Assembly: GCF_008629695.1 (NCBI RefSeq) | Contig: NZ_VWSH01000003.1 | Coordinates: 557,688 to 621,687, forward strand | From: Taibaiella lutea | GTDB taxonomy: Bacteria; Bacteroidota; Bacteroidia; Chitinophagales; Chitinophagaceae | DNA: 64,000 nt | Direction of reading: 5' to 3' | In this document: in pieces, positions 18,102 through 20,151 of the stretch | How positions within the stretch are numbered: position 1 is the stretch's first letter | Layout: every line of letters begins with the position of its first letter | The notes under the pieces: generated by a model | The model's input: the letters and a program-made list of their open reading frames with translations, nothing else | Database searches by the model: none | What the model was told of the DNA's origin: nothing | Translations under genes and position numbers: made by a program

Positions 18102-19268
18102 TTACAAAATTCTTTCAATTTTATTTTCTCTAATAAGTACCAGGCCGGGCCTTTTACCCTTCTCAATCAAACCTATTGTGTTCATTTGCAATGCCTTTGC
18201 TCCATTATAAGTAGCCCAGGTCAACAAAATTTCCAGGCCTATTTCGGGAAAATATTTTTGAATGCACTCTATTTCGCTCCAGATATTCAGCTCATGATTC
18301 GAAGAATAACTATCTGTTCCCAAGCAAACAGGTAAGCCGCTTTCCATAAAAAGCTTTACCGGCGGCATCCTTTGTTCTATATACCAATTGGCATTCGGGC
18401 ATACACATAAGTAAAATTCCCTCCCACTCTCTTTCAATACCTTTACATCCTCCGCATTCATAAAAGTATTATGAACCAACATCAGCGGATGCGATTTTGC
18501 CAGCCAGGGAAGATAAGTCTGCAACGAAGTCTTGCCCGAAGCCTCAAAGAAACCCGCATCAATCTTCAATGTTTCATAAAGCTCAAACATCTGGCCCGTC
18601 CCCTCTTCATAAAATTCATTCTCCGCAGCCGTTTCTTCATTATGTATGGAAATCAGGCTGCCCTCATCAAACCCATCAATTGCTTTAAACATTCCTTCCG
18701 AAACAGAATAAGGCGCATGAGGCACAATAGATTGCCTTAAAATCTGCCCTTCCCTTACCGATTGCTGAGCAGCGAATTGCCGATAAACATTTTCAGGCCA
18801 TGCAAACCGCTGCTCAATATTTTCATTTGAAAATCCAAGCGCCTCTACAAAAGTATGGATATGAAAATCAGCCTCCGTCCTGTAAGGCAACGTATCCGTA
18901 CCATTTGCAATATCGCCTACAGCTACAATGCCATTCTCCCTCATCTCCTTCAAAGCAGATACAATACCCGCTTGTTTATCTTCCTCCGTAAACTTGTTCC
19001 GCTCCGACACCACACTTTGCAAAAAAGGAACAAGACCTGTCCCTTCTTTCACAACCCCTTTCATGTGCGACAATTCTATATGGCAATGCGCATTTACGAA
19101 ACCCGGACAAAGCACACCCTCCAGATGTATAATATCCGCTGCAGGAATATCATTTTCCGATAACACATCCATAACCGTTCCATCATCTGATATGGCAATT
19201 ACACTGCCCTGTGGCAGCCATTGTTTACCATTATGTATTTGCGAAGCGCTGTAATATTTCAATTTCAT
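18102..19268 (-). CDS. Amidohydrolase-superfamily deaminase/hydrolase
   Basis: This cytoplasmic enzyme of about 388 residues belongs to the metal-dependent amidohydrolases. The first metal motif, NAHCHIELSHMKG, gives HxH after CPGFV. Later ligands are the His in SIHNEE, LVHNTF, and Asp in GTDSYSSN. The fold and the ELSHMKG signature resemble the ATZ/TRZ-type deaminases rather than HutI. The substrate cannot be set from sequence. I start it at the ATG at 19268 (MKLKYYSASQ); an ATG six codons upstream (19286) is possible. Its start abuts the 21-bp repeat array, with divergent csaA beyond. Confidence 0.82.
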   Translation of the reverse strand: MKLKYYSASQIHNGKQWLPQGSVIAISDDGTVMDVLSENDIPAADIIHLEGVLCPGFVNAHCHIELSHMKGVVKEGTGLVPFLQSVVSERNKFTEEDKQAGIVSALKEMRENGIVAVGDIANGTDTLPYRTEADFHIHTFVEALGFSNENIEQRFAWPENVYRQFAAQQSVREGQILRQSIVPHAPYSVSEGMFKAIDGFDEGSLISIHNEETAAENEFYEEGTGQMFELYETLKIDAGFFEASGKTSLQTYLPWLAKSHPLMLVHNTFMNAEDVKVLKESGREFYLCVCPNANWYIEQRMPPVKLFMESGLPVCLGTDSYSSNHELNIWSEIECIQKYFPEIGLEILLTWATYNGAKALQMNTIGLIEKGKRPGLVLIRENKIERIL

Positions 19269-19390
19269 TCGTTTTATAATACCCATGCAAATTTGGAAGG
19301 ATAATTCCGTATCCCGAAAATTTATTTTACATTCTTTGTTTCCCGTTTTAACACATTTGTTCCCGCTTTTTGAATAATTATTCTATTTAT

Positions 19391-19642
19391 TAATAAAAAA
19401 CTTCCCTATATTATTAAAACAGTTTCGTATATTAACAAAAGAGTCCCGTATATTTATAAAAGAGTTTCGTGTACTAACAAAAAAGTTTCGTATACTAACA
19501 AAAGAGTTTCCTGAATTAATAAAAGAATCCCGCATATTTATAAAACAGTTCCGTGCATTTACAAAAGAGTTCCCTGAACTAACAAAAGAGTCCCGTGTAT
19601 TTAAAAAAGAGTTCCGTGCATTAATAAAAGAATCCCGTGTAC
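19391..19642 (+). repeat. Tandem array of twelve 21-bp units
   Basis: Twelve consecutive units of exactly 21 bp (consensus about TAACAAAAGAGTTCCGTGTAT) fill 252 bp with no length variation, although individual units differ at several positions. A thirteenth decayed unit follows at 19643-19663, and degenerate units may extend back to about 19335. One forward frame stays open from 19378 to a TGA at 19645-19647. It reads as heptads of the form [TI]K[EQK][FS][RP]x[LF], but it has no ATG, GTG or TTG start and is preceded by TAA. An AAAA tract recurs every 21 bp, close to two helical turns, which would favour intrinsic curvature. The array fills most of the gap between the divergent amidohydrolase and csaA genes; 19664-19815 holds only a 7-bp hairpin (19705-19726). 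Confidence 0.9.
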
Positions 19643-19815
19643 TATGAAAATGATTTCAGGTTTTACAAAAATCACCTCATGCATCAATACACCATTCATT
19701 CACGTTTCACTTACGCTACAGTGAAATCAACCATTATTCTTTTACAGAAATCATCTTATTCACCGCAACCTACAACATCTTGTTTCCGTATATTTAGCCC
19801 ATAATATTACATACA

Positions 19816-20151
19816 ATGCAACCGATTACCTGGAACGATTTTGAAAAAGTAGAATTACGCGCAGGCACTATTCTGGAAGTTCATCCATTCCCCAAAGCAA
19901 GAAAACCGGCTTATAAACTAATAATAGACTTCGGCCCCTGCGGCATCCTTAAAAGCAGTGCTCAAATCACAAAGCATTATACGCCCGAAACCTTAATCGG
20001 TAAACAGATTGTAGCCGTCATCAACTTTCCTGAGAAACAAATAGCCGATTTCCTGTCCCAATGCCTCGTAACAGGTTTTGCAGATGAAAATGGCGATATT
20101 GTTTTGACAGCTTTGGATAAAACAGTGGCAAATGGAACGAAGATTGCCTGA
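19816..20151 (+). CDS. csaA: CsaA-type tRNA-binding domain protein
   Basis: This 111-residue protein is a single EMAP-II-like OB-fold domain of the CsaA family. It shows FEKVELRAGTILEVHPFPKARKPAYKL in segments typical of the family (VELRxGxI near 11-18, KARKPAYKL near 31-39), SSAQIT, and the C-terminal KxVxNGxKIA ending. CsaA proteins bind tRNA and have been described as secretion-related chaperones in Bacillus; the physiological role here is uncertain. The length is full for the family. It lies alone downstream of the 21-bp array and diverges from the amidohydrolase gene. Confidence 0.92.
   Translation: MQPITWNDFEKVELRAGTILEVHPFPKARKPAYKLIIDFGPCGILKSSAQITKHYTPETLIGKQIVAVINFPEKQIADFLSQCLVTGFADENGDIVLTALDKTVANGTKIA

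Follow-up and report, generated by a model that had tools for sequence, protein, structure and literature searches.

What maintains a tandem array whose units keep an exact length of 21 bp while their bases change? The question arises in Taibaiella lutea, where such an array occupies the intergenic stretch between two divergent genes, an amidohydrolase gene on the minus strand and a csaA-like gene on the plus strand (csaA being the name that we assume for the tRNA_bind gene). The window analysed here is a stretch of 64,000 nucleotides of this genome, and the features at the locus are collected in Table 1. From a comparison of this locus with the rest of the genome and with other genomes, we consider it probable that the window array is a protein-specific operator array in an orphan (trans) position, a copy of an autoregulatory parent array in front of a helix-turn-helix (HTH) gene elsewhere in the T. 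lutea genome.

Table 1. Features at the amidohydrolase/csaA locus of T. lutea, in window coordinates
Feature	Position	Strand	Remark
Amidohydrolase gene (PF01979)	18102..19286	-	Divergent neighbour
Distal leader of the array (two in-register 21-bp units and 9 bp upstream)	19326..19376	+	Local alignment to the C4 array spans 19326-19381
Thirteen head-to-tail 21-bp units without indels, consensus about AGAGTTCCGTGTATTAACAAA; proposed binding-site array	19377..19649	+	
Decayed or weak continuation of the array, in register	19650..19681	+	End of the lag-21 segment
Promoter-like box GTATATTTAGC before csaA	19788..19798	+	About 140 bp downstream of the array; putative promoter
csaA-like gene (tRNA_bind, PF01588)	19816..20151	+	Right-hand neighbour of the array

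The array and its surroundings

Tandem Repeats Finder (TRF) reports 12.1 copies of period 21 at 19388-19641 with 74% matches and 0% indels, and the lag-21 score of the intergenic stretch is 79.8, compared to at most 7.4 in 1000 base shuffles, which bears out the initial annotation in its description of strictly 21-bp units with diverged bases between divergent genes. The units adjoin directly, without spacers. Leader units at 19335 and 19356 carry the register upstream, giving 15 units at 19335-19649, and downstream of these a weaker in-register similarity persists for a short distance (Table 1). Higher-order repeats of 42 and 63 bp are seen in the window array and one of 126 bp (six units) in the related array described in the next section (L009:1861-2114), which suggests that arrays grow by blocks of several units. 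An Rfam scan of the window reached the gathering score only for a tRNA and gave no CRISPR or structured-RNA match for the array.

Judging from two genus mates (L058 and L059), the amidohydrolase more likely starts at 19268 (MKLKYY) than at 19286; in the same two genus mates csaA is preceded by CGTATTTTAGC. The distance from the array end to csaA is 166 bp, more than separates most HTH-linked arrays from their gene. The gap between the amidohydrolase gene and csaA measures 529 bp in the window, whereas in G002 and G003, two of its genus mates, it is about 80 bp. A 21-bp array is missing from this site in all three genus mates searched.

A second array in the same genome lies in front of an HTH gene

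Another array of the T. lutea genome starts at C4:119806 and extends to about 120129 (hereafter the C4 array). The window leader aligns to its start (G000:C4:119806-119861) with 82% identity over 56 bp (E 8.8e-9), the first leader unit (unit 0) being identical at 20 and the second (unit 1) at 16 of 21 positions. Across the two arrays, units agree on average at 11.6 of 21 positions in register, compared to 4.1-7.8 in the other 20 registers, and they have a TTYCGTG part in common; column 20 of the C4 array is T in 9 of 13 units. When compared with the unit profiles of 39 arrays, the window profile is nearest to that of C4 (r=0.76; next best 0.61, reverse strand 0.21).

The C4 array lies directly upstream of a gene for a 118-aa protein of the Cro/C1 type, the sole Pfam match of which is HTH_26. 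A protein search finds two paralogues of this protein in the same genome, each with an upstream 21-bp array made of its own unit, for example AATTGTGTACCTCTTAAGTGT. The same genome carries an array at C2:172229-172500 that is unrelated to the window and C4 arrays. The gene has no match in the three genus mates, in which the corresponding interval, bounded by genes that we take to be paaE and comM, is short and holds no array. With exact 21-bp spacing, diverged units and a match to an HTH-linked array of its own genome, the window array resembles the HTH_26-linked arrays in all but its downstream gene: it is followed by csaA while the C4 copy is followed by the HTH gene, and for this reason it is filed as an orphan.

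Beyond T. lutea the trail of this particular sequence is short. A BLASTN search of the window array against 59 genomes (its own and 58 relatives) returned only short matches outside its own genome, the best at E 0.002. The leader pattern, allowing for at most 3 mismatches, is present in 13 of 394 family genomes, and of these matches the 12 that do not come from T. lutea fall at loci without a 21-bp array, several of them visibly in one homologous coding stretch, so that within the searched range the leader is not conserved outside its own genome.

A family of HTH genes preceded by 21-bp arrays

Relatives of the C4 HTH protein were gathered by protein search, in which the arrays played no part. 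Among 127 family genomes, 16 matches in 8 genomes belong to this protein family (E<=2e-21); after these comes a gap, generic HTH proteins beginning at E>=5e-10. Four of the loci with generic HTH matches (L119, L126, L128 and L135) show a weak 21-bp periodicity with scores of 11-12, which may be noise or decayed arrays. A scan of named genomes yielded 79 loci among the best 80 matches, 59 in Bacteroidota and 20 mostly in other phyla by record title, and since the 59 were drawn from the best 80 matches these counts are not a measure of prevalence. The Bacteroidota members come from Flavobacterium, Pedobacter, Chitinophagaceae, Bacteroidales, Reichenbachiella, Aquimarina and others.

After exclusion of a partial locus at a contig end (L149) and of duplicates (L145=L188, L146=L177, L147=L165), 72 distinct loci were available, and 20 HTH_26 genes with short HTH matches, mostly from other phyla (L222-L241), served as controls. 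Periods of 8-41 were compared in up to 600 bp upstream of each gene against 200 dinucleotide shuffles; N was counted as a mismatch in the final scoring, one background locus holding an N run. A period of 21 was best in 56 of the 72 members and in 2 of the 20 controls, all 200 shuffles were beaten by 51 members and by no control (p<=0.05 in 65 and 4, respectively), and scores of at least 20 were reached by 38 members, the highest control score being 8.2. For L221 and 9 of the 20 controls the protein match begins within the gene, and the stretch tested for them is partly coding. In 92 background loci (284 kb) the maximum was 14.3, and scores of at least 11 occurred in 8 of them compared to 46 of the 72 members. 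The loci are not independent of one another; thinning of proteins at least 80% alike leaves 51, for which a period of 21 is best in 42, all shuffles are beaten in 40 and a score of at least 20 is reached in 33.

For the 38 strong arrays the median length is 245 bp (122-467); their proximal ends lie at a median distance of 40 bp from the ATG, and 27 of them lie within 60 bp of it. A TAnnTTTG box occurs in only 13 of 46 loci, with 4.9 expected. An array is not obligatory for the family, since 21 of the 72 members miss p<=0.005 (L150, L175, many of L187-L208, L211, L218, L220 and L221), and weak arrays cannot safely be separated from noise, since 4 of the 20 controls pass p<=0.05 and 8 of the 92 background loci score at least 11. 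In Aquimarina sediminis (L211) the HTH gene lacks an upstream array, and an array 2.2 kb away (L211:98-321) precedes a Crp-type gene. In many Bacteroidota, as far as can be read from these genomes, this small HTH family is thus encoded directly behind such an array, with an own unit for each paralogue.

Fixed spacing, changing units and the link to the protein

Spacing is kept where sequence is not, as had been noted for the window array, and the same holds for the related arrays. When 39 arrays were aligned to their own profiles with gaps allowed, 2847 mismatches and 9 indels were counted over 10,036 positions, 34 of the 39 arrays being free of indels; units are thus about 28% mismatched to their consensus while the 21-bp spacing holds, although the indel count must be taken with caution, since the fixed 21-bp register of the profiles biases it downward. 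For the 126-bp alignment of the C4 array TRF gives 3% indels, whereas the profile alignment finds none. Arrays of fewer than 7 units were excluded from the profile alignment and from the Mantel tests described below. The orthologous loci L182-L185, with proteins 98-100% identical, have arrays that align without internal gaps while their bases differ, and L163 and L166 are separated by a single 42-bp gap, which amounts to two units. Dyad symmetry at p<0.05 was found in only 1 of the 39 HTH-linked arrays, a set that includes C4 and to which the window array is external, making head-to-tail binding likelier than binding to palindromic dimer sites.

Across paralogues the unit sequences differ, as judged from the arrays compared, and the spacing is constant. 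The more identical two proteins are, the more similar are their unit profiles (Mantel r=0.59, p=0.0002); on the reverse strand the correlation is weaker yet significant (r=0.31, p=0.0002), and below 70% protein identity it is 0.41 forward and 0.22 reverse. The recognition-helix region (residues 27-43), with an entropy of 2.39, varies more than the remaining parts of the HTH domain (1.30 and 1.41), but the C-terminal linker varies just as much (2.42). In partial Mantel tests the recognition helix given the rest yields r=0.30 and the rest given the recognition helix 0.29, so the helix is not singled out, and these near-equal values together with the variable linker mean that shared descent or general drift may account for part of the tracking.

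Orphan arrays and possible movement of the module

Five array types (C4, L091, L092, L173 and L174) were compared with their own genomes, and a clear orphan array was found for three of them (C4, L092 and L174). For the C4 type this is the window array, the direction of the search having been from the window to C4. The L092 type has an orphan of about 9 units at L154:1516-1704 (genome G022), upstream of coaBC and 80% identical to the L092 array, and the L174 type of Pedobacter planticolens has one at L251:1501-1710, upstream of fabV; the top ranking of L154 and L251 is circular, since each was found with the array that it then matches best. In all three orphan/parent pairs the units point the same way with respect to the right-hand gene. 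A further array of P. planticolens (L252:1285-1536, minus strand) precedes a DUF1569 gene and shares with L174 the leader and more than 200 bp of flank but not the units, which differ strongly and for which L174 is not the best match. No orphan array was found for the L091 type in its own genome, where a match at C2:499947 falls within a kinase-like ORF and was taken as chance, and for the L173 type of Flavobacterium gelidilacus the best 3 of 12 off-target matches include no second array.

The extent of a possible movable unit is seen most clearly in L182 and L185, the HTH proteins of which are 98% identical: similarity begins at the distal array end and breaks off 12 bp past the gene. Among the 8 pairs compared, it also ends at or near the gene end in L163/L166 and L200/L201, while the other five pairs share further flank. 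L182-L184 differ in their 5' flanks and have a further stretch in common some 390 bp past the HTH gene, which may be a dispersed repeat or belong to the movable unit. When the neighbouring genes were clustered into families (left unnamed), none occurred in more than three of the 72 loci, nor was there a recurrent transposase, recombinase, motor or partner gene, so the movable unit is most simply the gene with its array. The aligned loci thus indicate that gene and array can occupy different sites as a cassette.

Alternative explanations

The main rival to a regulatory operator array is a selfish or mobile cassette consisting of array and HTH gene, in which case orphans would be remnants without a role for their neighbours and the array might be needed for spreading, for instance as a recombination target. 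Such a cassette would account for the absence of both T. lutea arrays (window and C4) from the same sites in the three genus mates searched, for the patchy distribution among family genomes, for the sharp boundaries in L182/L185, for the lack of a recurrent neighbour family and for the shared leader and flank, with differing units, of the Pedobacter loci L174 and L252. However, the module has no recurrent transposase or recombinase next to it, and strict spacing together with the tracking between unit and protein implies a selected binding function even if the module is mobile; we consider this explanation unlikely, albeit the one to be reckoned with.

A structural rather than transcriptional role, with the HTH protein coating the arrays as centromere-like or nucleoid-organising sites, is improbable. 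The dispersed orphans are in line with it, and autoregulation normally needs fewer than the 10-20 contiguous phased sites present here, but there is no recurrent motor gene, few arrays per genome were seen and most strong arrays end near the start of their own gene.

For the array as a neutral product of slippage and tandem duplication that nothing maintains, the chances are slimmer still. Similarity is higher between blocks of 2, 3 or 6 units, as after unequal exchange, and L163 and L166 differ in the number of whole units, yet the arrays are tied to one protein family in many genera and hold their spacing at about 28% mismatch while their motif tracks the protein, which contradicts neutrality for the family. 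The initial annotation would have considered the array a chance local duplication if it were absent from all relatives and did not vary in copy number; it is indeed absent at this site in three genus mates, but related arrays exist in its own genome and in other genera, and the two-unit difference between L163 and L166 is a variation in copy number.

The two explanations that had been derived from the window array alone fare worst, because the C4 array shares its leader and register but not its AAAA tract, and has stops in the frame. Curved DNA, in which no dedicated protein would be needed for phased A-tracts to bend the promoter region between the amidohydrolase gene and csaA, has in its favour that columns 5-8 (in the phase of the initial annotation) are A in 12 of 12 window units, but the C4 units keep TTYCGTG while AAAA has mostly become ATAA, and the consensus of many other arrays lacks AAAA, which leaves this explanation very doubtful. 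A coding heptad repeat or its remnant has practically no probability left: the one frame is open through all 12 units of the window array, as had been claimed, with stops immediately outside, but C4 has stops in the matching frame and the frame is not kept open across related arrays (any open frame in 16 of 44, compared to 32% of column-permuted arrays).

Relation to known systems

An AlphaFold model of the protein shows an HTH domain with a helical tail (pLDDT 85.6, pTM 0.65). The only PDB sequence matches at E<0.001 are to Stl of SaPI2 (8q86, E 7e-5; 8qe9, E 2e-4), the subject of PMC11846896, and are limited to profile residues 1-81. In a Foldseek search Stl, CylR2 and VanUg rank at the top, none of them at E<=0.001. 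Cro/C1-type repressors with operator clusters (SaPI2 Stl, CylR2, SinR and P22 c2) are alike in their HTH fold and in having sites before their own gene. Cro/C1 proteins bind few palindromic operators as dimers, whereas here about 10-20 contiguous, direct and non-palindromic 21-bp units are found, with orphan arrays elsewhere, and in lacking dyad symmetry (1 of 39) the HTH-linked arrays depart from classical Cro/C1 operators.

Iterons of plasmid origins are directly repeated units of about two helical turns, arranged in tandem next to the gene of the protein that binds them, and the arrays resemble them in unit length, in direct orientation and in the adjacent gene of the presumed binder; here, however, Pfam assigns HTH_26 only, so that the Rep initiator domain expected next to an origin is missing, as is a recurrent partner gene. 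Partition centromeres of the parC/ParR type combine a small ribbon-helix-helix DNA-binding protein with an adjacent direct-repeat array. The likeness lies in the small DNA-binding protein adjoining the array, whereas here the protein is of the HTH_26 type and no ParA/ParM-type motor gene recurs next to it.

Closest among the published systems listed are TAACTGA direct repeats in intergenic DNA of Beggiatoaceae, Cyanobacteria and some Bacteroidetes, which according to the abstract of PMC4679880 also form arrays upstream of genes with a patchy distribution suggesting horizontal transfer; those have 7-bp units of one fixed sequence, and the abstract names no dedicated adjacent gene, whereas the arrays studied here vary in the sequence of their 21-bp units and have an HTH gene dedicated to them. 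Searches of collections of phages, plasmids and viruses returned no more than partial HTH matches; in PHROGs the matches were weak and to transcription regulators (best E 3e-4), PADLOC gave two weak ones from one of 5 proteins, and hence no link to defence or phages was found in these sets; NCBIfam returned nothing at E<=0.1 for 7 proteins of the HTH family. Among the open-access matches listed, as represented by title and start of the abstract, HTH-linked 21-bp arrays are not described, which is weak evidence of absence with preprints and most subscription papers outside this set.

A proposed autoregulator and its operator arrays

Of the explanations put forward for the window array, a DNA-binding protein, already contemplated in the initial annotation, is judged the best account. 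In the operator-array model favoured here, the HTH protein would bind each asymmetric unit head to tail, and since 21 bp correspond to two helical turns, binding would always take place on one face of the helix, with the array being covered cooperatively. Most arrays end near the start codon of the HTH gene, and there the protein would repress its own expression; at orphan arrays the same protein, bound upstream of another gene, may modulate that gene's expression, which in T. lutea would concern csaA and the divergent amidohydrolase gene. Gene and array would move between genomic sites as a cassette.

A more far-reaching version of this model is tentative, and we hold it to be rather less likely than its local counterpart: across the phylum, small HTH proteins with a variable recognition helix, each accompanied by its own array of about 10-20 sites, might form mobile self-addressing modules in which specificities co-diversify, the cassette moves, orphans are seeded in trans and the protein coats its array as a phased filament. 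If this reading is true, the co-evolution of recognition helix and site would be readable from many natural protein-array pairs.

Taken together, a regulator with its operator array is a known kind of system, and the module described here is widespread in Bacteroidota. It explains an array that could easily have been dismissed as a peculiarity of one locus, and it raises the question of what role orphan arrays play beside csaA, coaBC and fabV. As each locus places a regulator beside many variants of its presumed binding site, and as such loci occur in several orders of Bacteroidota, they constitute a natural data set for the evolution of DNA-binding specificity and might supply orthogonal regulator-operator pairs.
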